Position numbers and translations under genes: made by a program. The notes under the pieces were generated by a model. That model was not told the origin of the DNA. It ran no database searches and saw only the letters and a list, made by a program, of their open reading frames with translations. DNA of 64,000 nucleotides, from positions 1-64,000 of the forward strand of contig NZ_CVPE01000004.1 in assembly GCF_001049895.1 (NCBI RefSeq), in the 5' to 3' direction. Position 1 is the stretch's first letter; every line of letters starts with the position of its first letter. The DNA comes from Rubeoparvulum massiliense. GTDB taxonomy: Bacteria; Bacillota; Bacilli; Rubeoparvulales; Rubeoparvulaceae. This document shows, in pieces, positions 29,195 through 64,000 of this stretch.

Positions 29195-29653
29195 ATGTCA
29201 ATGCAAGCGATCGTCTACTTTTTCCACATTACAGGACTTGCTATTTGGCTTGGTTCACTAATTATCTTTGCCTTGCAGTTACAGCAAATGCGCCATTATG
29301 CCGACCAACAGGAAACACTACTACCTTCTTTAACCAAACTGGTCAAGTGGTTACTCAATCCTAGTGCCTTCATTGTTCTAGTTAGTGGAGTTGCTCTTAT
29401 TCTCCAGATGGGGCTCATGGGAACCACAAAGCCATTCTATCTTAATTACATGGAACAGTTTGGCGGTGTAGTCATTCTCTTATCCATGATCGTCCTATTC
29501 ATCCAAGCACGAGGTATCCAGAAATCCCTAGCGAAAAGCCAAACATCCAAACACCATCTACAAGCCAAAGCACGCAACTTCGCAATCAGTATGATCGGCT
29601 CTACCGTATTAATCCTTAGTGTGGTATTGGTTGTAAGCATGAAGCTTGTTTAG
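29195..29653 (+). CDS. Four-span membrane protein of unknown function
   Basis: A 152-residue protein with four predicted membrane segments (about 5-25, 52-73, 84-103, 127-148). A conserved-looking His in FFHITGLAIWLGS near the start recalls small heme- or copper-associated membrane proteins such as CopD-like or DUF2269 families, but no firm family can be named. AGAAGGAGAGG precedes the ATG. It stands between two terminators. Confidence 0.75.
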   Translation: MSMQAIVYFFHITGLAIWLGSLIIFALQLQQMRHYADQQETLLPSLTKLVKWLLNPSAFIVLVSGVALILQMGLMGTTKPFYLNYMEQFGGVVILLSMIVLFIQARGIQKSLAKSQTSKHHLQAKARNFAISMIGSTVLILSVVLVVSMKLV

Positions 29654-29678
29654 TATGAAAAGTGATGAACAATTGATC

Positions 29679-29731
29679 AACCCCACATGGAGCTCTGATA
29701 ACAATCAGTGCCATGTGGGGTTCTTCTTTTC
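29679..29731 (+). terminator. Terminator after the 4-TM gene
   Basis: A 12-bp stem AACCCCACATGG/CCATGTGGGGTT with a 20-base loop (29679-29722), followed by T-rich sequence. Confidence 0.7.
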
Positions 29732-29734
29732 TCA

Positions 29735-30202
29735 CTATGGGGTATTCAGATTCATTTGTGATGTTTCTGCCCGATCCGCCTCTGGCGAAGTATCTGGGAT
29801 ATCCCCCACGGGTACCTTCTGTTTGTTCATGGCATGCATTCCTCTTGCATCGACATGGTACATCACATAGTACATTGCTTCATCTGTAAATGTATAGGTA
29901 ACCTCATAATGACCATCTGAGATGTGACTTGCATCTATCCATGTATGTTGAGGATCCCCTTGCTTCCAAACTTCAAATTGGACGCTACTAGCATCTTCAA
30001 CGGCTTGATCCTTCTGAAGGACTATCGCTCGTAGTAAACTTTCAGTACCCGGTTGGATCACAGTGGGTTCCATTTGTATTACCACTTCAATGGGTACAAC
30101 CTCTTCATATAGATTGTGTAGGGTTTCATCACTCTTATCTCCACAAGCTGTAAACACAAGAAGGAACACCAACACCAGCCCTAACTGCTGAATCCGAGCC
30201 AT
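29735..30202 (-). CDS. FixH/YtkA-like lipoprotein
   Basis: A 155-residue lipoprotein: lipobox VFTACG within the first 25 residues, then a beta-sandwich-like domain (VIQPGTESLLRAIV, VQFEVWK, DGHYEVTYTFTDEAMYYVMYHVDARGMH) of the FixH/YtkA type. Such domains occur near cytochrome oxidase and copper-delivery proteins. AAAGGAG precedes the ATG 30202. It is isolated; its neighbour at 29195 is on the other strand. The His/Met-rich MHAMNK end could bind copper, which is speculation. Confidence 0.75.
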   Translation of the reverse strand: MARIQQLGLVLVFLLVFTACGDKSDETLHNLYEEVVPIEVVIQMEPTVIQPGTESLLRAIVLQKDQAVEDASSVQFEVWKQGDPQHTWIDASHISDGHYEVTYTFTDEAMYYVMYHVDARGMHAMNKQKVPVGDIPDTSPEADRAETSQMNLNTP

Positions 30203-30341
30203 CGAATACATCTCCTTTCACCATTGACCTATCCTCTCTCTGTTGGTCAATCCATCAATAATTGTAAATGAGTGGTGATGAAGATGCAATCATGATGCAT
30301 TCAAGCTGCTACTGGTCACAAGAACTCCTACAAAAAAAGAA

Positions 30342-30373
30342 AAATCTCTTAATCATGAGTGACTAAGAGATTT
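30342..30373 (-). terminator. Terminator after the second tatA
   Basis: A 10-bp stem AAATCTCTTA/TAAGAGATTT with a 12-base loop, followed on the minus strand by T-rich sequence. Confidence 0.7.
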
Positions 30374-30379
30374 ACACCA

Positions 30380-30583
30380 TTATTCGTTCTTTGGTTCTTC
30401 TGTTTTCTTTGCTTTCTTTTCTTCTATATCATCGTCTTCTTGCAATTCACGTGTAGACTTTTTGAACTCCTTGAGGGTTTGTCCCACTGCGCGGCCTAAC
30501 TCAGGCAATTTCTTTGGGCCAAAGATGATGAGTGCCACTACTAAAATAATAATAAGTCCAGGTACGCCTATACTCGATAACAT
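30380..30583 (-). CDS. tatA: Twin-arginine translocase subunit TatA (second copy)
   Basis: A 67-residue TatA/E protein: membrane helix [13 protein letters not shown], hinge [13 protein letters not shown], amphipathic helix and an acidic-then-basic tail. It is shorter than the copy at 24349-24627, mainly by lacking its long Ser/Thr-rich tail. No tatC is nearby. B. subtilis likewise has several TatA proteins (TatAd, TatAy, TatAc) with different partners. Confidence 0.92.
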
Positions 30584-30701
30584 CGTATCATCACCCTTAA
30601 CTGTTAATCTTGAACAACTTGTGCATCTTTATCATCTCACAATTGGTCAATAAAATCCATGAGAAATAATGATAAAAAAAGTAAGTCAAATTATGGTATT
30701 T

Positions 30702-31814
30702 CTACAGAATCCTTTTTTTCTTGGCCATTTGATGATTGAGCAGCATTTCAAATCCCATCTTTAATACAGCAAAGAATGGGACAGCAAGAAACATGCCTAA
30801 TACGCCAAAAGTTCCTCCACCTACAATAATAGCGAGAATCACCCAGAATGGACTGATTCCTACTTTATCGCCAAGGATTTTGGGACCAAGATACAAGCCA
30901 TCAAACTGCTGTAGCGCCAAGATAAAAAGGAACACCCACAGAGCTTGAATCGGTGAGATAAACAGCGTAATCACTGTTGCAGGGATCATGCCAATGAATG
31001 GCCCAAAATAGGGGATCATATTGGTTACCCCAACAATTAAGCTAAGCAGAAGCGGGTAAGGTGCATTGAGTAGGAGAAGTCCACCATAACAGATCATTCC
31101 TATAATACTGGAATCCAGCAACTTCCCAACGAGATACCTAGAGAAGGTTTGATCACTTTCCTTTAGAAAATTGATAGTTGCCTCTGCATTCCGATCGGAC
31201 ATAAATGCATATAATATCCGTTTGCCCGTAGCAGCAAATTTCTCCTTATCAATCAGCATATAGATAGAAATAATAAATCCAAGGGAAAACTTCACCAGAC
31301 CCATGGCAAAATTTCTTAAGCCTAAAGCAACATTGCTAACAGCTTCATTCAATGAGCCGGATAAATCCTTAATATGGTCAATGGCAATCTTTTTATACTC
31401 CATAACATAGGGCTGGAGTTCATATTTCGTTACATATTCATGCTCCATCAGCTCTGTATCTACCCATCTCTCCATATTACTAAGATAGGTAGGGATATTC
31501 ACGATAAAGTTCTCTACACTGCGTAAGATCCGAGGAGTAAAGAAGGTCAGTGAGAAGATGACCAAGCCTAAAAAAGCGAGGTAGACGATCAAGATACTCA
31601 TATATCTTTTCATGCGAAATCTGGTTTCTAAATAGACAATTAGTGGCTTTAGGATATAAGCGATCCCAAAGGCAATAATCACCGGACTAATCAATCCTAA
31701 AAAACCACGAAATAGCTCTAGCAGGTAGCCCAGATTGTCCACTGCCTTAAACATGAGAAAGATAATGAAAAGGATTAGGAGATAAAAATACCACTTTCGT
31801 TCTCTCACTTCCAT
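30702..31814 (-). CDS. AI-2E family transporter (YtvI-like)
   Basis: A 370-residue membrane protein with about eight segments, an N-terminal pair, a coiled soluble region (about 100-150) and the C-terminal GPFIGMIPA and LGPKILGDKVGI signatures of the AI-2E/UPF0118 family. Members are exporters of autoinducer-like compounds or Na+/H+ antiporters; YtvI relatives in sporulating Bacillales are of unknown substrate. Single gene, divergent from the nrd operon. Confidence 0.9.
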   Translation of the reverse strand: MEVRERKWYFYLLILFIIFLMFKAVDNLGYLLELFRGFLGLISPVIIAFGIAYILKPLIVYLETRFRMKRYMSILIVYLAFLGLVIFSLTFFTPRILRSVENFIVNIPTYLSNMERWVDTELMEHEYVTKYELQPYVMEYKKIAIDHIKDLSGSLNEAVSNVALGLRNFAMGLVKFSLGFIISIYMLIDKEKFAATGKRILYAFMSDRNAEATINFLKESDQTFSRYLVGKLLDSSIIGMICYGGLLLLNAPYPLLLSLIVGVTNMIPYFGPFIGMIPATVITLFISPIQALWVFLFILALQQFDGLYLGPKILGDKVGISPFWVILAIIVGGGTFGVLGMFLAVPFFAVLKMGFEMLLNHQMAKKKRIL

Positions 31815-31975
31815 ATGCTCCTTTACCCAACTTATATCAGGTAGCTTTATGATGCTTATTCACCTGAGTATACTCAATATTATAGTATGAAACCCACTAA
31901 AAAATCATGTAAATACTCATTATTTCCAAAATTTTATTCATTCTTTCATCAAACTGTAATATGGCGCAACATAAA

Positions 31976-32022
31976 AATCAAAATATAGATATGTTTATAA
32001 TTCGTCACACAATATGTAGTGT
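31976..32022. promoter_or_regulatory. NrdR box pair upstream of nrdGD
   Basis: ACACAATATGTAGTGT at 32007-32022 matches the NrdR box consensus ACACWATATATWGTGT at 15 of 16 positions. Exactly 31 bases upstream (31976-31991) a degenerate copy matches at about 10 of 16. NrdR boxes come in pairs near this spacing. A TATAAT at 31996-32001 and another at 32064-32069 mark possible promoters; the -35 elements are weak. Confidence 0.75.
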
Positions 32023-32089
32023 ATTTCACCTTGAATTAGGGTGCAATGATTGAAGCTTCACGTTATAATCGAAGAGACAATTCACCATA

Positions 32090-32265
32090 GAATGATTAGG
32101 TGCCGTAATAGGGCTTAATAGGGAAGTTGGTGCAAGGCCAACACTGTCCCCGCAACTGTATATGAGGACGAAATGAGCTGTCACTGTCTAAGATTAGGTG
32201 CAAGCCATTTAGATGGGAAGACCTCAGAGTAGGAAGATCCATAAGCCAGGAGACCTGCCTAACCA
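32090..32265 (+). ncRNA. Cobalamin (B12) riboswitch
   Basis: Conserved blocks occur in order: AGGGAAG, GGTGCAAGGCC, TGTCCCCGCAACTGTA, GGGAAGACCTCAGAG and the B12 box AAGCCAGGAGACCTGCC (32243-32259). It lies between a promoter region and nrdG. Riboswitches of this class usually repress when adenosylcobalamin is bound. A terminator follows at 32312-32341. Confidence 0.97.
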
Positions 32266-32311
32266 TTGCTTTACCTGCTCTTCGGGAGAAGGAGCCTGGC
32301 TTCTTTGTGAT

Positions 32312-32341
32312 CGGCTCATTTCCCAGAATGAGTCGTTTTTT
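32312..32341 (+). terminator. Attenuator terminator of the cobalamin riboswitch
   Basis: A nine-bp stem CGGCTCATT/AATGAGTCG (one G-U pair) with a six-base loop, followed by six T, ahead of the nrdG ribosome binding site. Upstream GAGCC (32292-32296) can pair with GGCTC inside the stem, a possible antiterminator. Confidence 0.8.
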
Positions 32342-32366
32342 ATCTTGTTAAGGGGATGAATTTACT

Positions 32367-32858
32367 ATGCAATTACGACTAGCAACACAGCTACAGGAGG
32401 CGATTATTGAGAGCACCTGTGATGGGGAAGGCATCCGCCTTGTCTTATTTACAGCCTATTGCCCCCATCATTGTCTAGGTTGCCATAATCAACAGCTCTG
32501 GTCGAGAACAAGTGGCGTTACATATGAGGTAGAGCAGGTGGTTCGATCTCTATTACAACGATTGGAGGGGGGGCCATACTCAGGTATTACGATCTCCGGT
32601 GGTGACCCATTGGCTCAATCTACGTCCATAAAAATTTTACTACAAACATTAAAGCGAGAGCAGCCCACCCTGAATATTTGGTGCTACACTGGCTATCGAT
32701 TAGAAAATCTACCTGATCCCAGCCTCCTCCCCTTTCTGGATGTACTCGTGGATGGACCCTTTCAGAAAGAACACTGTCCTACTACCCTTCCCTTTCGCGG
32801 TTCCAGTAATCAGCGAATGATTCGACTTCAAGCAGGTAAAGTCATAAGCTTTGAGTAA
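32367..32858 (+). CDS. nrdG: Anaerobic ribonucleotide reductase activase NrdG
   Basis: A 163-residue radical-SAM activase. CPHHCLGC provides the C-x3-C-x2-C cluster ligands (Cys32, Cys36, Cys39), and TISGGDPL is the SAM-binding GGE-like motif. It installs the glycyl radical on NrdD. It precedes nrdD, the reverse of the E. coli order, and both lie behind the cobalamin riboswitch and NrdR boxes. AAGGGGATG-type site upstream. Confidence 0.94.
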   Translation: MQLRLATQLQEAIIESTCDGEGIRLVLFTAYCPHHCLGCHNQQLWSRTSGVTYEVEQVVRSLLQRLEGGPYSGITISGGDPLAQSTSIKILLQTLKREQPTLNIWCYTGYRLENLPDPSLLPFLDVLVDGPFQKEHCPTTLPFRGSSNQRMIRLQAGKVISFE

Positions 32859-32917
32859 AATCACACACTTCAAATAATGTTCCCCAACAATGAATCACTG
32901 AAATGGAGAGATGATTG

Positions 32918-34864
32918 ATGATAACAGATAGCATGTCATACACAACCCTTGATCAGGAGATTGCAGCAATCTGTAAACAGACCCATCGGGAGAATGCCAA
33001 TGTTGGTCATGGCCCTTCCAGCAAGCTCTTGCAGATTGCGGAGCTTGCTAATCAAGAGTATAGCGCCACCCTACTGCCTACTGAAATTAAAGAAGCTATT
33101 GCAAGTAATATTCTCTATCCCCATGATTTTTCCTGGTATAGTGTAGGCACAACAACCTGTACTTTCATTCCCCTACGCAAACTATTAGAACGTGGCTTCC
33201 ACACCGGACATGGTTTCATTCGTTCACCAAAGCGAATTCGTACAGCAACGCAATTGGCTTGCATCATCTTTCAGTCCAATCAGAATGATCAACACGGAGG
33301 ACAAGCATTTGGATGGTTTGATCGAGATCTAGCACCCTACGTTCAGCGTGAATTCACTTGGCAACTTCAGCATTTACAAGAGCTCTTTGCAAGCAGCGGA
33401 AGTGAGAAGCCCCTTACTGTGCAAGAACTTGAAGGGTTAGCTTGGAATGCGACGAAGGATGAGACCTTTCAAGCGATGGAAGGACTTATCTTTAACCTAA
33501 ATAGTATGCACGCACGGGCTGGAGCACAAGTTCCCTTTACCAGTATTAATTTTGGAACAGATATCTCCAAGGAAGGACGCTTAGTCAGTGAGATGCTACT
33601 ACGGGCTTATGATCGTGGGTTGGGATATGGAGAACAGCCCCTCTTTCCCAACTTAATCTTCAAGGTGAAGAAGAGCGTCAATTTTGAGGAGTTTTCACCC
33701 AATTACGATCTTTTTCAGCTTTCCCTACGTGTAACAGGTCATCGTCTCTTCCCTAACTATGTGTTTCAAGACTGCACGTTGAATCAAGATTTTCCTGAGG
33801 ATGTGCCTGTGATGGGGTGTCGGACTCGGATTGCTTGGGATCGCTATCAGGATGAAGCGACTCAAACCTGTGAAGGTCGAGGAAACCTCTCCTTTACTAC
33901 ACTCAATTTGCCTGGCCTTGCCCTTTCATTAAAAAAAAGAAAAACTCCGTCTACGCTAGACCGCGAAACTTTTGCTCAGCTAAAACAATTATATTCCATC
34001 CTTTTACCAACAAGATTCTTAGAAGATCCAATAATTCAGACTTACTTTATTGAGTTATTTCAAGCGCTTCAACTAGCCATCCAACAACTACACTTGCGTT
34101 TTCAGTATCAAGCTTCTTTTTCTAAACATGATTTTCCTTTTCTCATGAATGGCGTCTGGATGGATTCAGATCAATTAAAGAGAGAGGAGAACTTAGAACC
34201 AGTACTACGGCATGGTAGCTTGGCTGTTGGCTTTATCGGACTGGCTGAAGCATTAATTGTCCTATGTGGAGAACATCATGGTGAAAGTCCCCTTGCCAAT
34301 GAACTAGGCCTTTCGATCATTCAATTTATGCGAACAGTTCTAGATGCGGCTAGTGAGGAATATCAGCTGAATTATTCCCTCTTGGCAACACCAGCAGAGG
34401 GACTCTGTGGTAAGCTGCTGGAACGAGATCGTCAACAGTATGGTATGATCGATGGTGTAACTGATCACGACTGGTATACCAATTCTTTTCACGTGCCTGT
34501 TAACTATCCTATTTCCATCTTCGGGAAGATTGGTGTTGAGGGACCCTATCATCGCTATTGCAATGGTGGCCAGATTAGCTATATTGAACTTAAAGAGGCA
34601 CCTCGCAATAATCCGCAGGCATTGGAGCGCATCTTACACGCCATGTCTGTTAGTGACATGGGCTATGTAGCATTTAACTTTCCTGTTGATCATTGCTTAG
34701 ACTGTCACTATGATGGCATAATTGAAGATGCTTGCCCAGAATGCCATAGTCATCATATCTCACGGATTCGTCGCATTACGGGATACCTTGCAGAGTTTGA
34801 TAACTTCAATAAAGCAAAACGTGCAGAGACGGAGCAACGAGTGGCCCATGGAGAAGGGAAGTAA
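32918..34864 (+). CDS. nrdD: Anaerobic (class III) ribonucleoside-triphosphate reductase NrdD
   Basis: A 648-residue class III reductase that makes dNTPs without oxygen. The radical glycine lies in RRITGYLAE (about Gly622), after two Cys pairs, CLDC and CPEC, that bind zinc. MHARAGAQVPFTSINFG in the middle is typical of the family. No N-terminal ATP-cone of the usual form (VxKRDG) was seen, so allosteric activity control may be reduced. The ATG 32918 follows GGAGAG; a TTG one codon upstream also opens the frame. The end overlaps ydcF. Confidence 0.95.
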   Translation: MITDSMSYTTLDQEIAAICKQTHRENANVGHGPSSKLLQIAELANQEYSATLLPTEIKEAIASNILYPHDFSWYSVGTTTCTFIPLRKLLERGFHTGHGFIRSPKRIRTATQLACIIFQSNQNDQHGGQAFGWFDRDLAPYVQREFTWQLQHLQELFASSGSEKPLTVQELEGLAWNATKDETFQAMEGLIFNLNSMHARAGAQVPFTSINFGTDISKEGRLVSEMLLRAYDRGLGYGEQPLFPNLIFKVKKSVNFEEFSPNYDLFQLSLRVTGHRLFPNYVFQDCTLNQDFPEDVPVMGCRTRIAWDRYQDEATQTCEGRGNLSFTTLNLPGLALSLKKRKTPSTLDRETFAQLKQLYSILLPTRFLEDPIIQTYFIELFQALQLAIQQLHLRFQYQASFSKHDFPFLMNGVWMDSDQLKREENLEPVLRHGSLAVGFIGLAEALIVLCGEHHGESPLANELGLSIIQFMRTVLDAASEEYQLNYSLLATPAEGLCGKLLERDRQQYGMIDGVTDHDWYTNSFHVPVNYPISIFGKIGVEGPYHRYCNGGQISYIELKEAPRNNPQALERILHAMSVSDMGYVAFNFPVDHCLDCHYDGIIEDACPECHSHHISRIRRITGYLAEFDNFNKAKRAETEQRVAHGEGK

Positions 34865-35477
34865 ATCAGGACGGAAAGGAGGAGTCACGATCACAAAAAT
34901 TCGAAAGAGCAAGAGATGGTTCTATTTTCTTTCATCACTACTCCTGATAGCCATCATATATGTAGCAATTATCCATACCTTAATCATGAACACAGCCAAT
35001 CAACCAGCCTATGAAGATGCCCCTTATCTCATCGTTTTAGGAGCAAAAGTAAATGGTGAGGAAATGTCCCTCGCCTTATCCAATCGAGCAAACACCGCAT
35101 TGGAATATTTACACCATTCCCCCAATACGAAGGTGATCGTAACAGGAGGAAAAGGGGCGGGAGAACAAATCAGTGAAGCGGAAGCTGTTCGTCGCTTTCT
35201 AATTCAACACCAGATAGATACGGAGCGAATTCTCACGGAAGACCAATCGACGACCACCTATGAAAACTTATTATTTGCCCAAAGATTGATGGACTCTTCC
35301 AATGCAAAAGTGGTCATTGCCAGTAATGATTTTCACCTACTGCGGGCACTCACCATTGCAGAAAGGTTGGGAATGGATGCCTCTCCATTAGCTGCACCCA
35401 CTCCCACCGTTGTAAAGTTGAAACTATACATTCGAGAATATCTCGCCCTTGCGAAAAGTTGGTTATTCGATTGGTAA
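34848..35477 (+). CDS. YdcF-like (DUF218) membrane protein
   Basis: A DUF218 protein with one membrane segment (LLLIAIIYVAIIH), then APYLIVLGAKVNGEEMS, the family's opening motif, VIVTGGKG and the ending ASNDFHLLRA. Family members such as E. coli YdcF and SanA/ElyC are involved in envelope processes. The ATG at 34848 gives 209 residues and lies 17 bases inside nrdD, but a perfect AAAGGAGG is followed seven bases later by ATC (34890), which would give 195 residues and a more natural N terminus. The gene ends flush with convergent msrAB. Confidence 0.82.
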   Translation: MEKGSKSGRKGGVTITKIRKSKRWFYFLSSLLLIAIIYVAIIHTLIMNTANQPAYEDAPYLIVLGAKVNGEEMSLALSNRANTALEYLHHSPNTKVIVTGGKGAGEQISEAEAVRRFLIQHQIDTERILTEDQSTTTYENLLFAQRLMDSSNAKVVIASNDFHLLRALTIAERLGMDASPLAAPTPTVVKLKLYIREYLALAKSWLFDW

Positions 35478-36485
35478 TTATGGCATGAGAAATAACGAAG
35501 AATATTCTCCATACCCTGCTTCTTCCAATTCTTCTTTAGGGATAAAACGTAAGGCAGCAGAGTTGATGCAGTAGCGTAATCCTGTTGGTTCTGGTCCATC
35601 ATCAAACAGATGCCCGAGGTGGGAGTCTGCAAAATGGCTTCGCACTTCAGTACGAATCATCCCATGACTCAAATCAAGCTTGCTGCTGATCAGTTCTTCA
35701 TGAAGTGGCCTTGTAAAGCTAGGCCAGCCACAGCCAGCGTCAAACTGATCTTTACTACTAAAAAGTGGCTCTCCAGATACGATATCTACATAGATGCCTT
35801 CCTTCTTATTGTTCCAGAAAGGATTTTGGAAGGGAGGCTCTGTCACATTCTCTTGTGTGACCCGAAATTGAATAGGGGTAAGACGTTCCTGCAATTCCTC
35901 TCTCGTATCAGTTCGTTCCTCTGCCCATGCCGGTAAGATACTTGCATCTACGCCCCAATTTTCAATGAGATACGCTTCCCGACCTGATCCCTTGCGATAC
36001 ATTTTGTAGCGGAGGGGATTTTTTTTATGATACTGCTGATGATACTCCTCCGCTGGGTAGAAGGCTTGGGCAGGAAGAATCTTGGTCACGATGGGCTTTT
36101 TGAAGCGACCACTTTCCGCCAATGCCTGTTTTGATGCCTCTGCCACCTGTCGTTGTTCCTCATCATGATAGAAGATAGCTGTTTGATAAGAGGAACCACG
36201 ATCATGGAATTGACCACCTGCATCAGTGGGATCGATCTGGCGCCAAAAGATATTTAACAAGGTACCATAGGTAACTTTCGTAGGATCATATGTAATCTGA
36301 ACCCCCTCATAATGACCTGTTTTACCACTACATACCTCCTCATAGCTAGGATTCTCCTGATGCCCACCAGTATAACCCGAAACAACAACGATCACACCCG
36401 ACTCTGCTTCAAATGGTCCTACCATACACCAAAAACAGCCTCCAGCAAAGGTGGCTAACTTCACTTGAGCTTCCGTGGATTGCAC
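35478..36485 (-). CDS. msrAB: Fused peptide methionine sulfoxide reductase MsrA/MsrB
   Basis: A 335-residue bifunctional enzyme. Residues 8-165 are MsrA with GGCFWC (catalytic Cys17), reducing methionine-S-sulfoxide; a linker leads to MsrB (about 195-330) with [10 protein letters not shown] and catalytic Cys in [11 protein letters not shown], reducing the R form. The CxxC zinc pairs of many MsrB proteins are absent, so it belongs to the zinc-free type. Repair of oxidised methionine fits the region's redox genes. It starts with GATTGAGC-like weak site; no signal peptide, so cytoplasmic. Confidence 0.95.
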
Positions 36486-36502
36486 TGCTCAATCACACCC
36501 TT

Positions 36503-37207
36503 TCACGTTAATGGATAAATAATACTATTACTGTCATTATATACATTCAGCCCATGTAAAATAAACTGTACCGTACGCTCTAGTTCTGCTTCATCATCCC
36601 AAGGCACATTAGGTGCTAACCAATAACGGACAATAAAGTGTCCAATGATGGTTGATGCAAGCAAACGCAATACGGATTCAGTAGGCCATGTAATGATTTG
36701 CCCCTTTTCTCTGTAATAATCAATCACCTCATGCATGCGCTCCACCAGCTGATCGGCAATATACTGTTTATACTGCGCTTGTAATTCTTCATGGAAAGCA
36801 ATCTCCTGCATAAAAATTTTTAGTACGGGACGATAGCGTTGGACAAATTGCTGACGATTACGCACCATCGCCCGTAAGAATTCTTCAAAGGTCTCGTATT
36901 TTGTATCCAAGAATTTTTGCATATCCTTCATAATAAAGGGGCGGACTAACTGTGTCATCACTGGCCTGACGATAGAGATGAGCAAATCCTTCTTTGTTTT
37001 ATAATGGCGAAAAATCGTTCCTTCCGCCACTCCTGCTTTTTTCGCAATCTCACTTGTTGAGCTGGTAGCGTATCCCTTCTCAGCAAACGTTTTAATGGCT
37101 GCTGCTAAGATTTTACTCTGTTTCTCTGTTAAATGCTCCTCTTCTGAGCATAGGTGTAAAATTTCATTGATCCAAACTTGTTGTTGCTTATCATTAACTT
37201 CAGTCAT
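36503..37207 (-). CDS. TetR/AcrR family regulator
   Basis: A 234-residue TetR-type regulator; the helix-turn-helix is AIKTFAEKGYATSSTSEIAKKAGVAEGTIFRHYKTKKDL, residues about 33-71. It lies downstream of an ABC-2 exporter on the same strand with a 60-base gap, and probably controls it. Ligand unknown. Similar arrangements in Firmicutes control drug exporters. Confidence 0.9.
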   Translation of the reverse strand: MTEVNDKQQQVWINEILHLCSEEEHLTEKQSKILAAAIKTFAEKGYATSSTSEIAKKAGVAEGTIFRHYKTKKDLLISIVRPVMTQLVRPFIMKDMQKFLDTKYETFEEFLRAMVRNRQQFVQRYRPVLKIFMQEIAFHEELQAQYKQYIADQLVERMHEVIDYYREKGQIITWPTESVLRLLASTIIGHFIVRYWLAPNVPWDDEAELERTVQFILHGLNVYNDSNSIIYPLT

Positions 37208-37270
37208 TTCCGTTACTCCTTTACTTCTAGTTCAGTTTTCTATGCTGGATTATTAATCTATTCGTTTTGA

Positions 37271-38302
37271 TTATTGTGCCCGATGTTTTCGCAGGGCAAA
37301 AATATTCGCAAACATAAAGATGAGGGTAAATAATAGAAGAATTAGCACGTCCCACTGTATTGCATCCCACCCTTTCCCACGGAGCATAATGTTACGAAGG
37401 GCTTCAGCTCCATAGGTTAATGGCATGGCCTTACCAAGTCCTTGTAACCATGGTGCCATGGTCTCCGTTGCAAATAATCCAGAGAAAAAGATCTGGGGAA
37501 CAATTACGATGGGAATGAACTGAATCATTTGTAGTTCATTATTGGCAAAGGTTGAAAGAAAAGTACCCAGGGCTAAAGCACTCATTGCGATGAGAAGAAT
37601 AACCAATAATACATAGAAGATTGAACCAACCTGCATCATATCAATGACTTCAATGGCAAACCAAGTGATGAGAAAGGACTGGATGATGGCAAAGAAGCCA
37701 AATCCTCCTAGATAGCCAACAACCAGCTCCCACCGTTTTAAAGGAGTGGCAAGAATACGTTCAAGGGTTCCTGTGGTTCGCTCACGTAACAAGGAGACAC
37801 CCGATAGAAGAAAAACAAAGAAAAATGCGAAAAAGCCTAGGAGTACCGGGCCGATATTATCAAATAAGCTCATCTCAGCAGAGCCATAGTAATAATGAAT
37901 CTCTGGTTTAATTAAAGGCGCATGCGTCATCCCCTCAAAGCTCATCTGGAGCATCTGGATAATCCGATTCCCCTTACCTGGATCACTCCCCTCGAGGATG
38001 AGACGTGGAGCACCTACCTCAGAGCCAATCAGTATGGCGTCCAACTCCCCCTCTTCTAGAGCCAGATTAGCCTCCTCTTCCTGATTATAAGATAATATTT
38101 CTGCTCCATTCTTCTCTAGCCGTTCTTCCATAACTTCTGGTACTTGGAGCACAGCAATTTTGGGCTGATATAGCGCACCACCAAACACTTGATCCATGAG
38201 CCATAATACTAAAATTGGCGCAAGGAGTAGCAAGGCTAAGCTTCTGCGATCCCGTAAAAATTGCCGAATCACTCGTACAATGATCGCACTGATTCTCATC
38301 AT
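37271..38302 (-). CDS. ABC-2 type exporter permease with large extracellular loop
   Basis: A 343-residue permease: one N-terminal segment (SLALLLLAPILVLWLM), a large extracellular domain (about 45-170), then five segments including LLSGVSLLRERTTGTLERILATP, the hallmark of YhgE/YadH-type ABC-2 exporters. The ATG 38302 overlaps the ATPase stop (ATGA) after GGAGGGG, so the two are translationally coupled. Probable drug or toxin exporter; substrate unknown. Confidence 0.9.
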   Translation of the reverse strand: MMRISAIIVRVIRQFLRDRRSLALLLLAPILVLWLMDQVFGGALYQPKIAVLQVPEVMEERLEKNGAEILSYNQEEEANLALEEGELDAILIGSEVGAPRLILEGSDPGKGNRIIQMLQMSFEGMTHAPLIKPEIHYYYGSAEMSLFDNIGPVLLGFFAFFFVFLLSGVSLLRERTTGTLERILATPLKRWELVVGYLGGFGFFAIIQSFLITWFAIEVIDMMQVGSIFYVLLVILLIAMSALALGTFLSTFANNELQMIQFIPIVIVPQIFFSGLFATETMAPWLQGLGKAMPLTYGAEALRNIMLRGKGWDAIQWDVLILLLFTLIFMFANIFALRKHRAQ

Positions 38303-39039
38303 ACTTCCCCTCCTTGCATACATTCTTCATAATGGAGAAAAACATCCTCCACATTAAAACTACCCGTACTCTCCTTCAATTGCTGAAGTGTACCATAGAC
38401 TAGTAGTCTTCCTTCTCTTAAGAGTGCTAATTCATCACAATATTCCGCTTCATCCATCACATGCGTTGTAATTAAAATGGTTGTTCCAGCATCCCGTAAT
38501 TGTTGAAGTTTCTGCCAAATCGCTCTTCGCAAGACAGGATCAATACCCACCGTGGGCTCATCTAAAATTAAGAGTTTAGGATGGTGCAACAAACTTATGG
38601 CAAGCGAGAGTCGACGTTTCATTCCACCAGAGTAATGACCCACCAATTTTTTTAACTCCCCCTGCAATCCCACCCATTCCATTACTTCTCGAATTCGATC
38701 TTTCCGTAATCCTTTCGGAATCTGGTATAAGGCAGCATAGAACTGCAAGTTTTCCCATGCACTTAATTCTTGATACAAGGCATCTGATTGCGCCATATAC
38801 CCTATCTCCTGCATAAGAGGGAGATTAGGCATCGGTGTGCCGAATACAGCCACCCTTCCCTGGGTTGGGCGTTCAAGGCCCACGATCATACGGATTAGCG
38901 TGGTTTTCCCTGCCCCTGAGGGGCCTAAGATCCCTACGATTCTCCCTCCCTCAATAGAAAGCGTACAAGCAGTAATCACGTCCTTCTTTCCAAAGCTTTT
39001 ATAAACCCTTTCCAAGCGAATCACATCATTTTCACTCAT
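38299..39039 (-). CDS. ABC transporter ATP-binding protein
   Basis: A 246-residue ATPase: Walker A GPSGAGKTT, signature YSGGMKRRLS, Walker B LLILDEPTVGIDP, and H-loop TTHVM. It is of the drug-export (DrrA-like) type and pairs with the permease at 37271-38302. Order on the strand is ATPase, permease, TetR. It has a good GGTGAGGTG site before the ATG. Confidence 0.93.
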   Translation of the reverse strand: MSENDVIRLERVYKSFGKKDVITACTLSIEGGRIVGILGPSGAGKTTLIRMIVGLERPTQGRVAVFGTPMPNLPLMQEIGYMAQSDALYQELSAWENLQFYAALYQIPKGLRKDRIREVMEWVGLQGELKKLVGHYSGGMKRRLSLAISLLHHPKLLILDEPTVGIDPVLRRAIWQKLQQLRDAGTTILITTHVMDEAEYCDELALLREGRLLVYGTLQQLKESTGSFNVEDVFLHYEECMQGGEV

Positions 39040-58130: not shown

Positions 58131-58398
58131 GTGCTTCGAACACACTCCTCATCCCATTGCTTCATTCTTTCTGTTGCTGAGATAACATGTATATCATACC
58201 AATTAAGTATATATGTAGGAAGCACTATTCGCATGGAGAAGATGTCTTGAGTCCAATCCTTTTTTCATTATTTTCTAATGAATTAGGTAGATATTTCACT
58301 ATACATTCGAAGAAAGAGCATGATATAGTAGGCTTAATTATAGGTGCATGCTGAGATCAGACCAACAATTTCTAAAGCGAATAGGAGGGAGAATAACG

Positions 58399-58836
58399 AT
58401 GAATGCAGTGAGCAATGAAATGATTCTTCAGGCAATCAAAGAATTGGCAGACCATTTAACAGAACACCGCGATGAAACCAGAGTGAAATTTGAACAGATC
58501 GATCAGCGCTTCGATGAAGTAGACAAGCGCTTCGAACAAATCGACCTACGATTCAATGAAGTGGATAAGCGCTTCGAACAGATCGACCTACGATTCAATG
58601 AAGTGGATAAGCGCTTCGAACAGATCGACCTACGATTCAATGAAGTGGATAAGCGCTTCGAACAGATCGACCTACGATTCAATGAAGTGGATAAGTGCTT
58701 CGAGCTGATGGATAGGCAGTTCAATTCCATGAAGACAAGCCTAGGGGAACTAGCAACGGGACAACAGCTCTTCATCACAGAAGTGTGGAACAATAAGAAA
58801 AATCTCCAGCAACTTAAAAATCTACTAGGGTTATAA
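58399..58836 (+). CDS. Coiled-coil protein with 14-residue tandem repeats
   Basis: A 145-residue helical protein. A short head (NEMILQAIKELADHL) leads into RFEQIDLRFNEVDK repeated about five times, two heptads each, then a tail SLGELATGQQLFITEVWNNKKN. The fixed 14-residue period predicts a long continuous coiled coil. The pattern (RF..ID.RF.EVDK) recalls DUF1640/XhlA or tail-fibre-like coils but no family is firm. AGGAGGGAG sets the ATG 58399. Function unknown. Confidence 0.75.
   Translation: MNAVSNEMILQAIKELADHLTEHRDETRVKFEQIDQRFDEVDKRFEQIDLRFNEVDKRFEQIDLRFNEVDKRFEQIDLRFNEVDKRFEQIDLRFNEVDKCFELMDRQFNSMKTSLGELATGQQLFITEVWNNKKNLQQLKNLLGL
58519..58686 (+). repeat. 42-bp tandem repeat inside the coiled-coil gene
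   Basis: Four units of 42 bases at 58519-58560, 58561-58602, 58603-58644 and 58645-58686; the last three are identical and the first differs at a few bases. A diverged 36-base unit precedes and an 18-base partial unit follows. Near identity at DNA level implies recent expansion. Confidence 0.95.
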
Positions 58837-59583: not shown

Positions 59584-59608
59584 ATTCCAAAATAGCATTA
59601 CAAATGAA

Positions 59609-59639
59609 GGGTAGGATCCTGTTCCTACCCTCTTTTTAT
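59609..59639 (+). terminator. Terminator after the 175-residue protein gene
   Basis: An eight-bp stem GGGTAGGA/TCCTACCC with a six-base loop (59609-59630), followed by T-rich sequence. Confidence 0.8.
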
Positions 59640-59646
59640 TATGCTA

Positions 59647-60639
59647 TTATGCCAAATGAGCAGGGATAATCTTATGCTCAATCAATGTGGCAATCGCTTC
59701 CTCTGCCCGTTGCTGATAGGTATGCTTGGCCACCGTCTTCATCCCCTGAGCGCGAATATCCTCACGCTGAGACGTAAACTGTTCCAAATAGTAACGAACC
59801 ACATCGATGGTACCCGTTTCATATTGGGATATGACAAGATCTTTCCCTGGCTGAAAATACTTTCGAACCGCTTGTGTATCTGATGTGAGTAGAAATCCGC
59901 CTGATGCTAATATTTCAAAGGTCCGATGTGTCAGCTGATCAATAAATGACTGTAAACCGATGGTAATACAAGCAGTATGATAAATTTTTCTCGTCTCTGT
60001 ATAAGGGACTGAACCATGAATCCATTCTGGCGGAATGGTAACCCCCATATAAGGTTCCATCCGCTCCCAGCCCTCACCCCAGAAGTCCACACGGATGCCT
60101 GCTCTAATTAATGGGGAGAGTAGGATCCGGATCGATTCAAGCCGATAGCTATCGCGATACATGTGGAGTTCATCTATAAAGGAGCTCGCCACAACTGCGA
60201 TATTACAGCGATACCGTTCATCCCATTCGGGATAGTTCACACTGGGTTGATACGCAAAATCAAGATATGCTGCTTTTAAACTCAGAATCTTAAAGTACTC
60301 TACCATATCAGAGCAGATGCTAAAGATAAAGTCCGGCTGCATTCGACTGATTAATGGTAGAACGAAGGTATAGGTATGCCGTGGGTCTTCCACAGACCAA
60401 TAGGCATGAGGGATTCGATATTCTGTTACGAAGTGCCGAATCCATTCTTGCTTCTCTTGCGTTTGTTCAGGTCCCCAGCCCATGGTAAAGACGAGATCCG
60501 GCTGAAATTGTTGGATCATGACGGGTATACTATCCCATGTGATTGGACCTGACACCATCACCTCATGTCCTGCATCACGGAATCCCTCTGGTAGTAATAG
60601 AGAGAGTACAGGATGACTCGTAAAAAAAAGAACGCGCAT
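59647..60639 (-). CDS. CgeB-like glycosyltransferase (GT-B fold)
   Basis: A 330-residue glycosyltransferase of GT-B type, starting RVLFFTSHPVLSLLLPEGF with the C-terminal HRTFEILASGGFLLTSDTQAVRKYF block of the CgeB family. CgeB modifies the outer spore surface (crust) in B. subtilis. GAGAGGTG before the ATG 60639 sets the start. It ends a minus-strand cluster with deacetylase and WbqC genes. Substrate unknown. Confidence 0.85.
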   Translation of the reverse strand: MRVLFFTSHPVLSLLLPEGFRDAGHEVMVSGPITWDSIPVMIQQFQPDLVFTMGWGPEQTQEKQEWIRHFVTEYRIPHAYWSVEDPRHTYTFVLPLISRMQPDFIFSICSDMVEYFKILSLKAAYLDFAYQPSVNYPEWDERYRCNIAVVASSFIDELHMYRDSYRLESIRILLSPLIRAGIRVDFWGEGWERMEPYMGVTIPPEWIHGSVPYTETRKIYHTACITIGLQSFIDQLTHRTFEILASGGFLLTSDTQAVRKYFQPGKDLVISQYETGTIDVVRYYLEQFTSQREDIRAQGMKTVAKHTYQQRAEEAIATLIEHKIIPAHLA

Positions 60640-60703
60640 AGCGATCACACCTCTCACTGTTTTCTCTCTATACTATGAAAGTGAAAGTTATTAGAAACGG
60701 CCA

Positions 60704-61450
60704 TTATCCAAGCCAATTCAGCTTGGTTAAGATGTTCTGATAGCCTTGAATATTATTAGCCAATTCTTCCTTGGTATACTTCACCACATCGCGTTGGTAG
60801 AGTTCTAGCTTAATTTGAGGCGAGATTGACTCTTTTGAAATCCACCAGATCGGATGAATTAAAAGGTTCAGCTTCTTCTCATGATGCAGATGCTGGCACG
60901 CACATCCTTCACGCCAATGATGATTGGAATCGGATAAATACTTATACTCTGTAAAGAATCGTTGATCATATGCATTGAGATAACCTGGAATCTGAATCTG
61001 TTGATTCAATAACGTGTTAGAGGGACGATGGAAGGAATAGATTTGGACGGGAGAATCGATGATTTGCGATAGAATCTTAGATTCATGAATAATTTGATCT
61101 ACCAGCTCATTAGACTCCTGAAAGGGAGAAGCATCAAAATGAAGACCGAGTTGATGCCCCATGCCTTTGATCTCTTTTAGAAGGGTACGCGAGGCCGAAG
61201 AGAGGACATTATAGAATGGTGAAGTTAGCCAAACAAAGTAGGTTGAGCGAATATTAAGTTTCTCCTCCAATTCTGCCATCTGATGTGCATAAGAAATACT
61301 TAAATCAATATCATGGCGCAAAATAACTTGCCGTTCCTGTTCCCACAAGCTATCTTGGTCAAGCTCATCATATATCAGAAACGGGAAGTTTAATCGTTGT
61401 AACTCTTCAAGGATCTCACAGTAGTGTTGCTTTGTAAAATGTGTATTCAC
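60704..61450 (-). CDS. NodB-like polysaccharide deacetylase family protein
   Basis: A 248-residue protein with LRHDIDLS (catalytic Asp and metal Asp of NodB folds) and LGLHFDAS (the metal His), and later LLIHPIWW. It lacks a signal peptide, so it probably acts on a cytoplasmic lipid- or nucleotide-linked glycan rather than wall. GAGGTGAAGTCAT precedes its GTG start. Part of the WbqC/CgeB cluster. Confidence 0.8.
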   Translation of the reverse strand: MNTHFTKQHYCEILEELQRLNFPFLIYDELDQDSLWEQERQVILRHDIDLSISYAHQMAELEEKLNIRSTYFVWLTSPFYNVLSSASRTLLKEIKGMGHQLGLHFDASPFQESNELVDQIIHESKILSQIIDSPVQIYSFHRPSNTLLNQQIQIPGYLNAYDQRFFTEYKYLSDSNHHWREGCACQHLHHEKKLNLLIHPIWWISKESISPQIKLELYQRDVVKYTKEELANNIQGYQNILTKLNWLG

Positions 61451-61513
61451 ATGACTTCACCTCACCTCTTTATGGAATAGTCGAGAACACTCGTGGCTTT
61501 AGCCATGAGTGGT

Positions 61514-62203
61514 TCAAGACGTCCGTGCTTGGCGGATGATCTCCAATGATGCGGGTCCACAGTTGAAGAGTAAATCGATTATGGATAGCTGCGGTATGAA
61601 TTCCCCCCATAATTGACGATAGACAGGGTGTTGAAATTGATGATATCTCAACTCTAGCCCCCTTTCTCGATACAACTGTTCATCATTATATACCCTCGCA
61701 CCATCCCCTGATAAATAGATTGTGGCATTTAACCTTTCGCAAATATTAAGATTACGGTAATTCCCCCCGACTCCCTCAACTTTTAACTCTGATTCCAGTA
61801 TTAACGGTGTATGAATTGAAAGCGTCTCTTTAATGGCCTGTATAAGCCGAATATTAAGCTGAGCTAAGGAATGCCACTGCTGTGTATAGATTTCTTCAAG
61901 AAGCTCACCATACAAATTCCAATATGGTGCTCTCCGATAATTCGCTACAATCTGGTGCCAATGTTTATGGCGCCACTTCGGATCAGCTGCAATCATCGTC
62001 TGACGAATGGATGGATTGCCATTGTTCTGAATAGGCACAGTTAGAAGTAATGAGCCTTGCGGAGTTTTGATTCGATTGCGATGTGTCACACTTGAACGAG
62101 AAAATTGTGCCTGATCTAAGAGAACAAAATAATCCACCCGATCCATCTTGTCGAAGAAGCCAATCCACGGGAGATAATTAGGTTGATGTATGGCAACGAT
62201 CAA
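61514..62203 (-). CDS. WbqC family protein (first copy)
   Basis: A 229-residue protein opening IVAIHQPNYLPWIGFFDKM, the WbqC hallmark, with YRNLNICERLNATIYLSG and LLFNCGP near the end. WbqC proteins occur in polysaccharide and surface-sugar loci; their reaction is not established. TTG 62203 lies six bases after GGGGGTG and gives the standard N terminus; a GTG at 62212 is possible. Related to the copy at 62749-63426. Confidence 0.88.
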   Translation of the reverse strand: MIVAIHQPNYLPWIGFFDKMDRVDYFVLLDQAQFSRSSVTHRNRIKTPQGSLLLTVPIQNNGNPSIRQTMIAADPKWRHKHWHQIVANYRRAPYWNLYGELLEEIYTQQWHSLAQLNIRLIQAIKETLSIHTPLILESELKVEGVGGNYRNLNICERLNATIYLSGDGARVYNDEQLYRERGLELRYHQFQHPVYRQLWGEFIPQLSIIDLLFNCGPASLEIIRQARTS

Positions 62204-62218
62204 GCGTCTCACCCCCAG

Positions 62219-62674
62219 TTACTTTCTCCGTTGATCTCCCATCTCCCGTGCCATCCAAAACCATGCCCCTTCTTCACCAATATGTTGAAACTTCATTCTG
62301 ATGTAGAAACGAATGGCACCACTATTGATTTGCGCTACTTTTAGGGTGATTTTCGGGATCTGAGCTTCCATGACCTTTTGACAAAATGTCTGCATAAGTT
62401 TCTCTCCCAATCTCAGAGAGCGAAACTGGTAATCCACGATCAGCTTGTGGATATGAATGGAGTTTAACACCTCTTTATCGGATGCTAATAGATAACCGAT
62501 AACCTGACCTCGATGAAGTAATGCTAAGGAATACTTCCACTTTCCAGGAAGTTCCATAAGAAATTGTGATTCAGCCCAGCATTCATCTGGGGTCTCCGCT
62601 GCAATCTGCATTATCCTCTCCATGTGCTTCCGCATAAAAGGTAAATCAATGACCTGAATCTTGTATTCTCCCAT
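62219..62674 (-). CDS. GNAT family N-acetyltransferase
   Basis: A 151-residue GNAT protein: HKLIVDYQFRSLRLGEKLM is motif A, and NSGAIRFYIRMKFQHIGEEG is the C-terminal half. It lies between two wbqC genes with short gaps, so it likely acetylates an amino sugar of the same glycan. Start at ATG 62674 after AGGTG; two further start codons lie just upstream. Confidence 0.85.
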   Translation of the reverse strand: MGEYKIQVIDLPFMRKHMERIMQIAAETPDECWAESQFLMELPGKWKYSLALLHRGQVIGYLLASDKEVLNSIHIHKLIVDYQFRSLRLGEKLMQTFCQKVMEAQIPKITLKVAQINSGAIRFYIRMKFQHIGEEGAWFWMAREMGDQRRK

Positions 62675-62748
62675 ATCCATCACCTACAATTATCTTATGC
62701 AGGTGATGCATTACCGCTTGTTGATCCACCTAAGCTGACGAATTGAGC

Positions 62749-63426
62749 TTACTCTCTACCCTTACGGATTATCTCTAAAGAATCTGGACCACAATTAAAG
62801 AGAAGATCCAGCGCAGATAGACGGGGAAGGAAGCTTCCCCCTAGCTGCGGATATTCAGGATGAGAATATTTTTGTTGTATCAGTGTAATGCCTTGCCCCT
62901 GAAGGGCTTTAATATCCACGCGCTCACCCTCTTTCGAGAGAAACCTCTTCGCACCGAGATGTCCACAGAGCTTATGAATACGCTCACTACCTTGGCCAAA
63001 GGCTTGATCCATTTCTGAAGCAACAAGAATAGATGTTTGGATGCTAAAAGCTTCTTTCAGGATAAAAATCACATGAATATTGAGATCGGAAAGAAAAGTC
63101 CATTCATGTTGATAAATAGAATGGACGACGCCTTGATACTTCGACCAATATTTTGCTTTGCCATAGGAGGATTCAATACTCTTCCAATGCTGCTCCCGCC
63201 AGCTTTTCCGATTATCAATGTAGGTATTACGTAAGGTTTGATTGCTTGGACTGATGGGAACGTTTAAAGGTAATACACTTGAAGCTCTTTTAATCATCCC
63301 ACGATGATTCCCACCTCTTCTATTTTGGTGAGCATCATCATCTAAAACAATGAGATCCACCTGATCCATACGATCAAAAAAGCTCAACCCAGGGAGATAG
63401 TCTGGCTGTTGAATCGTCACCTTCAT
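62749..63426 (-). CDS. WbqC family protein (second copy)
   Basis: A 225-residue WbqC protein opening KVTIQQPDYLPGLSFFDRM. It shares SALDLLFNCGPDSLEIIR with the first copy, but the two differ widely elsewhere, indicating an old duplication or two different substrates. It follows the DUF2935 gene by four bases and is likely cotranscribed with it. Confidence 0.9.
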   Translation of the reverse strand: MKVTIQQPDYLPGLSFFDRMDQVDLIVLDDDAHQNRRGGNHRGMIKRASSVLPLNVPISPSNQTLRNTYIDNRKSWREQHWKSIESSYGKAKYWSKYQGVVHSIYQHEWTFLSDLNIHVIFILKEAFSIQTSILVASEMDQAFGQGSERIHKLCGHLGAKRFLSKEGERVDIKALQGQGITLIQQKYSHPEYPQLGGSFLPRLSALDLLFNCGPDSLEIIRKGRE

Positions 63427-63430
63427 TGTG

Positions 63431-64000
63431 TTACATTTCTCCCTTCATCTTCTGTTCTAGCCTTTCCTCTAACACATGAATCATATAGAGAAAATGCTCT
63501 GCCTCCCGTACCACATGGTCAGCTAGCAAGGGATCGATCACATTGCGAATCTGACAGGTCTTAATCAGTTCAAGCCCTGTTTTCTTAAAATCTCGTAACT
63601 CCTCCGTAGCGCTCTCGCTATCCTTATTCATCTTTCCAATGATGGGGTAGGTGGGTTTTTTATGCAGTAGCATCGATTCTACATCCCGCGCTTGATTCAA
63701 TAGCACTTCAAAATCATCGCCAAATTTGCGAGCGGTAATCACCAAATTACGCTCTGATTGATCCAGTAAAGCTGAAATAAAGCGTGAATGCTCCATCATG
63801 ATTCGGAGCCAGAATACATTCTCTTGAATGATCGCATCTTGAATCGGATCAAGGATACCCTGATTTAATTTTTGTAAGGTACCCATAAAGTACTCCGCTT
63901 CACGAGCAATATGATCCACCAACAAAGGGAAATTGAAGCCTAAAATTTTGCAATTAACAATCAGGATTAGCAGATTTCGCTTAAAATTACGGAAACCATA
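63431..64000 (-). CDS. DUF2935 protein, N terminus beyond the right edge
   Basis: The reading frame stays open from 63431 to the last base, so the gene is cut by the window. Upstream of the first TTG (63925) the frame encodes NFKRNLLILIVNCKILGFNFPLL, which continues the family pattern. Two similar repeats (FNFPLLVDHIAREAEYF and IDPLLADHVVREAEHF) with His and Glu suit the DUF2935 four-helix, metal-binding-like fold. Function unknown; first gene of the cluster seen here. Confidence 0.85.
   Translation of the reverse strand, partial: YGFRNFKRNLLILIVNCKILGFNFPLLVDHIAREAEYFMGTLQKLNQGILDPIQDAIIQENVFWLRIMMEHSRFISALLDQSERNLVITARKFGDDFEVLLNQARDVESMLLHKKPTYPIIGKMNKDSESATEELRDFKKTGLELIKTCQIRNVIDPLLADHVVREAEHFLYMIHVLEERLEQKMKGEM

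Follow-up and report, generated by a model that had tools for sequence, protein, structure and literature searches.

In Porphyromonas gingivalis and Tannerella forsythia, the Wbp/Vim linking-sugar pathway runs from the enzymes WbpA/B/E/D to the putative CE4 deacetylase VimE and then to VimA, which adds Ser or Gly to the amine that has been freed (PMC7468200). Lipid A synthesis likewise has a deacetylase, LpxC, after which LpxD N-acylates the freed amine. Proteins of the WbqC family (PF08889) belong to O-antigen and exopolysaccharide clusters, as in E. coli and Pseudomonas stutzeri EPS273, where they have no assigned function (PMC5532660); the papers found treat the function of WbqC as uncharacterised (PMC5532660, PMC7848895), and none that assigns one was found. 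Here we describe a run of six genes at 59647-64330 on the minus strand of Rubeoparvulum massiliense contig NZ_CVPE01000004.1, the first 64,000 nucleotides of which are the window analysed. The genes encode, in order, a DUF2935 protein, a WbqC protein (WbqC1), a GNAT N-acetyltransferase, a second WbqC protein (WbqC2), a CE4-like deacetylase, and a CgeB-like glycosyltransferase, and with a probability of roughly 55% they form a small module of amino-sugar modification and transfer.

In this module, the CE4 deacetylase would act in the cytoplasm and take the N-acetyl (or N-formyl) group off a nucleotide-linked amino sugar, the freed amine would be re-acylated with a different group by WbqC2, and the GNAT protein would add an acetyl either to a second amine or to the group added by WbqC. 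WbqC1 would be a second acylating enzyme of different specificity, or a partner of WbqC2, and the finished sugar would be moved onto a surface glycan by the CgeB-like glycosyltransferase. The precursor enzymes (Gfo/Idh oxidoreductase, hexapeptide acyltransferase, DegT aminotransferase) would come partly from a second glycan locus (L176:3566-12861; genome G000, contig C3, about 29565-38860), which carries Gfo/Idh, hexapeptide acyltransferase, glycosyltransferase, CgeB-like, double GT2, and DegT genes together with divergent RmlD-like and GT2 genes. We infer the acylation of the amine by WbqC and the order of the steps; since the window cluster is without nucleotide-sugar genes, the co-operation with the locus on C3, its likely partner, is inferred as well.

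The likeness to the Wbp/Vim pathway lies in the freeing of an amine on a Wbp-made diamino uronic sugar by a CE4-type deacetylase, the re-acylation by a second enzyme, and the glycosyltransferase that comes after. WbpA/B/D/E-type genes, of the uronic amino-sugar type, are usually included in WbqC-bearing deacetylase loci and are carried by most WbqC/CE4 loci. In contrast, WbqC replaces, or accompanies, the FemAB/GNAT-type VimA, and wbpA, B, D, and E are absent from the run, with the Gfo/Idh, hexapeptide, and DegT genes at the second locus. The window deacetylase has a predicted CE4 fold and would correspond to VimE. Because no FemAB (VimA-type) match was obtained in the run, which has only a short RimI-like GNAT, it was not classed as a Wbp/Vim system, though it may work alike.

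With regard to lipid A synthesis, three Bacillota loci have LpxC itself next to WbqC, and where the deacetylase is of the CE4 family, LpxD-like enzymes can take the place of WbqC; however, the window uses CE4 and WbqC proteins, which are not known homologues of LpxC or LpxD, and the run has no lipid A genes. In the synthesis of mycothiol (MshB-MshC-MshD) and bacillithiol (BshB-BshC), an amino sugar is deacetylated and a group is then coupled to the amine, and the amino acid that has been added is acetylated by MshD, a GNAT. These thiol pathways serve as an analogy only, as WbqC is not a known homologue of MshC or BshC. Compared with the E. coli and P. stutzeri EPS273 clusters, the run has the same family in a glycan setting but holds WbqC in two copies, accompanied by a deacetylase and a GNAT. 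The cgeAB-cgeCDE and sps spore-crust glycan genes of Bacillus subtilis resemble the run in having a CgeB-family glycosyltransferase in a spore former, but the run is without a cgeA-like crust protein, expression of the run during sporulation is a possibility, and no WbqC or deacetylase appears in the description of the cge and sps operons (PMC7439481).

WbqC and LpxD-like proteins in deacetylase loci

When genomes of about 85,000 species were scanned, a set of 80 deacetylase loci was obtained; 35 of them, from many phyla, have WbqC no more than about 10 kb from the deacetylase. In a set of 398 Bacillota genomes, both genes were rare: 6 carried full-length deacetylase relatives and 15 carried WbqC, and all four genomes with both had them on one contig. 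Many deacetylase loci without WbqC had a protein of ~300 amino acids (aa), a left-handed beta-helix, directly downstream of the deacetylase, and LpxD models (NCBIfam TIGR01853/NF002060) were its best match (1.7e-49 or better in the five tested). Within 8 kb of the 80 deacetylases, WbqC was present in 32 loci, the LpxD-like protein in 29, and both in none; the Fisher p values, which ignore relatedness, were 2e-9 for all loci, 5e-6 for those of Bacillota, and 0.007 for the remainder. On the deacetylase tree, a quick tree with many weak forks, the WbqC and LpxD-like labels needed about 12 changes, 5 of which were forced by well-supported branches. The loci of Ureibacillus xyleni and U. manganicus match except for LpxD-like versus WbqC, having in common genes for DegT, an unknown protein, UDP-sugar dehydrogenase, CE4, Gfo/Idh, a FemAB-like protein (a weak assignment, about 1e-6), and DegT. 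In the deacetylase loci, no exclusion was seen between WbqC and FemAB or formyltransferase; only the LpxD-like protein excluded WbqC. The window run contains no LpxD-like protein and has WbqC instead. From these gene neighbourhoods, WbqC probably occupies the N-acyltransferase position in deacetylase loci. The limits given with the Fisher values, the tree and the FemAB assignments weigh against this reading, as do the 19 of 80 loci with neither protein within 8 kb, and the tree count eases the problem of relatedness without removing it.

The subtype of WbqC tracked the deacetylases too. WbqC-query loci were thinned at 80% identity, and deacetylases of the CE4, LpxC, and PIG-L families only were sought and counted within 7.5 kb, with PIG-L and LpxC confirmed by Pfam. 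A deacetylase accompanied 13 of 15 HQP-type WbqC genes (8 PIG-L, 3 LpxC, and 2 CE4) and none of the 21 loci with other types (MQP, LQS, IQS). The two HQP-type exceptions were L076, with the CE4 gene slightly beyond 7.5 kb, and L083, a short contig. The sampled MQP-type loci carried RmlA-, RmlB-, and DegT-like genes, and in these loci the amine would come from transamination. That one WbqC subtype adjoins deacetylases of three unrelated families points to a substrate feature common to all three, the freed sugar amine.

The trio of deacetylase, WbqC, and CgeB-like genes recurred in different gene orders in unrelated genomes. All three were found together with a CE4 deacetylase in L047, L076, L080/L158, and L155 (genomes G238, G327, G448, and UBA3576), and with an LpxC deacetylase in L072, L073, and L075 (genomes G232, G371, and G297). 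In the last three loci, from spore-forming Bacillota, the LpxC-type deacetylase lies near WbqC, CgeB-like, DegT, ATP-grasp, and FemAB-like genes. The preliminary description of this DNA had held that the set suits the making of an acylated amino sugar and could help to define WbqC; both points are supported by the recurrence of the trio in other Bacillota and by the position of WbqC in place of an N-acyltransferase.

WbqC proteins are widespread in surface-glycan loci, and the link of subtype to deacetylase, with the exchange of N-acyltransferases, gives them a specific testable role. If WbqC does acylate the amine exposed by the deacetylase, amino-sugar acylation would become predictable for many bacterial glycans and a new type of enzyme would be added. 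More tentatively, at odds of about one in three, WbqC may represent a class of N-acylating enzyme for amino sugars that is new and has no structural relation to LpxD, GNAT, or FemAB. Such an enzyme, perhaps an amide ligase that uses ATP and has the HIGH/nucleotidyltransferase fold, would have been exchanged repeatedly with LpxD-like enzymes downstream of unrelated deacetylases.

The deacetylase, the glycosyltransferase and the destination of the product

The deacetylase gene (60704..61450, minus strand) encodes a putative amino-sugar de-N-acetylase of 248 aa, assigned from the predicted CE4 fold and the conserved motifs. No Pfam or NCBIfam family scored above its cut-off, and no Pfam polysaccharide-deacetylase match was present up to E 0.1. 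The AlphaFold2 model (mean pLDDT 94.5) gave 27 matches in the PDB at E <= 1e-3, nearly all of them CE4 proteins, either enzymes or pseudoenzymes, with ArnD and ChbG in addition; PdaC, PgdA, and chitin deacetylases were included. In an alignment of 42 relatives, the Asp/His motifs RHDID (R45-H46-D47-I48-D49), GHxxGLH (H99/H104), HRP (H141-R142-P143), and HP (H199) were conserved. The protein is CE4-like by the modelled fold, and deacetylase activity is predicted; because the Pfam polysaccharide-deacetylase match is absent, it was called CE4-like by fold and not a member of the Pfam family. The earlier label of a NodB-like deacetylase without signal therefore held for the structure and motifs but not for the family models, all of whose cut-offs were missed. 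Judged by eye, the sequence has no evident hydrophobic signal peptide, as had been claimed, and the substrate is for this reason likely to be a cytoplasmic, nucleotide-linked sugar.

The CgeB-like glycosyltransferase gene (59647..60657, minus strand; likelier start an ATG at 60639) contains DUF3880 (PF12996, 2.6e-11) and Glyco_trans_1_2 (PF13524, 2.7e-22). Homologues 32-38% identical were found near WbqC in six other genomes, all of spore formers, and the host encodes SpoIVA, which makes it a spore former. SpoIVA was rejected as a discriminator for CgeB-WbqC loci, because nearly all tested WbqC genomes carry it, with or without CgeB. The earlier claim that CgeB points to the spore surface could not be upheld on these grounds, a CgeB-like name alone being insufficient. 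The scan of the cluster for sporulation-sigma promoters, which had been suggested as a check, gave no strict match, and relaxed patterns were about as frequent as in shuffles; sigma-70 promoters were at background level.

Only a little short of even odds is the reading that the same chemistry serves a product on the vegetative surface (S-layer, capsule, or secreted polysaccharide) and not on the spore. The promoter scan, in which nothing stood out, favors it, and most deacetylase/WbqC loci elsewhere, those of Gram-negatives included, look like O-antigen or capsule loci. On the other hand, the host forms spores and has another CgeB-like locus besides this one, and the six other CgeB-WbqC genomes also belong to spore formers, though so do nearly all tested WbqC genomes. 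Among the CgeB-like glycosyltransferases of the comparison loci, that at L047:5677-7266 had an extra C-terminal domain (CBM96 match), as did those of L155 and L076. A Cys/Pro-rich protein with no Pfam match, a possible spore-coat component, was conserved beside the CgeB-like gene at L080:3063-3725 and L076:4282-4926.

The two WbqC proteins

The host genome (2.84 Mb, 6 contigs) contains exactly two WbqC genes, both in this run. WbqC2 (61514..62212, minus strand; PF08889 3.3e-76) is a canonical HQP-type protein with the N-terminal motif HQPNYLPWLGY, and its start is probably a TTG at 62203 (229 aa) after the ribosome-binding site GGGGGTG. WbqC1 (62749..63426, minus strand; 225 aa; PF08889 9.1e-52) is the diverged second copy. 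The full-model bit scores were 256 for WbqC2 and 176 for WbqC1, against a Pfam cut-off of 21.3. The N-terminal motif of WbqC1 reads IQQPDYLPGLSF, with H6, W13, and G15 lost; Q replaces H at position 6, G replaces W13, S replaces G15, and F replaces Y163, and WbqC1 was the most diverged of 67 WbqC sequences at the conserved columns. It retains Q7, P8, P12, D30, R42, Y89, S138, Y195, Q197, S207, and D210. The idea that H6 is an invariant catalytic residue and WbqC1 dead was dropped, because H6 is limited to one subtype (the wider set has M, L, or I at this position) and WbqC1 keeps most of the conserved residues. The nearest relative of WbqC1 is WbqC2 (42% identity). In the WbqC tree, both fell in a supported group with two Ureibacillus proteins, the sisterhood of WbqC1 and WbqC2 was unsupported, and the branch of WbqC1 was twice as long as that of WbqC2. 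Judged by sequence, WbqC1 is a diverged paralogue.

The AlphaFold2 model of WbqC2 (pLDDT 95.4) had zero PDB matches below E 1e-3, and no convincing sequence relatives of WbqC were found in the PDB. Pfam notes suggest that one relative of WbqC may be a glycine transferase, an idea that found no confirmation here. An unlikely alternative, at about one chance in five, places WbqC among the nucleotidyl-transferring or activating enzymes of the HIGH/nucleotidyltransferase superfamily, in which case it would prepare the sugar or the acyl group and not join them. The best PDB match of the model, a TagD-type cytidylyltransferase (E 8.8e-3, prob 0.97), argues for it, as do the presence of class I tRNA synthetases and FAD synthetase further down the list and the rank of TagD as the best named match, after WbqC-like proteins, in the viral library BFVD. 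Kinship by profile was tried and rejected, since hhalign to the CoaD/NadD sets gave no more than the unrelated-deacetylase negative control, and the one-for-one replacement of LpxD-like N-acyltransferases is not readily explained by such an enzyme. For the acylating role of WbqC in the proposed module, it nevertheless counts as a difficulty that the modelled fold resembles no known acyltransferase and that a nucleotidyl-transfer role may apply; the lack of nucleotide-sugar genes in the window cluster and the failure of DUF2935 and GNAT to be conserved alongside the other cluster genes count in the same direction.

The remaining genes and the limits of the run

The GNAT gene (62219..62683, minus strand; 154 aa; PF00583 2.7e-11) encodes a short RimI-like protein that matched the NCBIfam RimI-type model below its cut-off. 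Relatives were present in only 2 of the 80 deacetylase loci, the alphaproteobacterial L110 and L131, where they adjoin WbqC. The first gene of the run (63431-64330, of which 63431..64000 lies in the window; minus strand) encodes a protein of 299 aa with two copies of the DUF2935 domain (PF11155 2.7e-49). It was rejected as a pathway member, since it occurred in none of ~125 comparison loci, and it is probably a passenger and not a glycan enzyme. The six genes of the preliminary description are accordingly not conserved as one set; what recurs in other Bacillota is the trio of CgeB-like, deacetylase, and WbqC genes, without DUF2935 and GNAT.

It is improbable that the product is a secreted amino-sugar metabolite and not a polymer, since the run contains a CgeB-like glycosyltransferase and no transporter, even though genes for UDP-sugar dehydrogenase, two DegT, FemAB-like, WbqC, PIG-L, TIM-barrel, MFS transporter, and GNAT proteins stand together in the related loci L207 and L208 of Bacilli, in our judgement a layout typical of small-molecule clusters. 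These two loci (L207:6161-15727 and L208:2288-13913) look like an uncharacterised amino-sugar metabolite cluster. More improbable still is that the six genes are chance neighbours on one strand with no common pathway, for although DUF2935 and GNAT are not conserved with the rest, the deacetylase, WbqC, and CgeB-like genes recur together in varied orders in unrelated genomes.

All six genes named earlier were present on the minus strand with intact reading frames and, as had been described, short gaps (4, 65, 6, 63, and 46 bp from DUF2935 to the glycosyltransferase), and the GC content of the run equalled that of the whole window. The cluster had been said to continue to the right, and the sequence there showed that it does so only by the first 330 bp of the DUF2935 gene, which starts at contig position 64330; it ends at this point because the next gene, TPR-like (about 64545-65111, plus strand), is divergent. 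At the other end, a terminator-like hairpin (59607..59632, minus strand) with a 10-bp stem, GAGGGTAGG...CCTACCCTT, lies 3' of the glycosyltransferase gene and before a convergent plus-strand gene, and its stronger T-run belongs to the plus-strand reading. The operon-like spacing of the genes and this hairpin count in favor of the proposed module. Between the WbqC2 and deacetylase genes is an inverted repeat, CTCATGGC-TAAA-GCCACGAG, at about 61489-61508. Outside the run, an open reading frame of 162 aa at 58348-58836 (plus strand) contains near-identical tandem repeats (FEQIDLRFNEVDKR) and is coiled-coil-like. On contig C5 of genome G000 (L175:9979-15703), nonulosonic-acid-type genes stand between the flagellin gene and a filament-cap gene, probably as a flagellin glycosylation locus.

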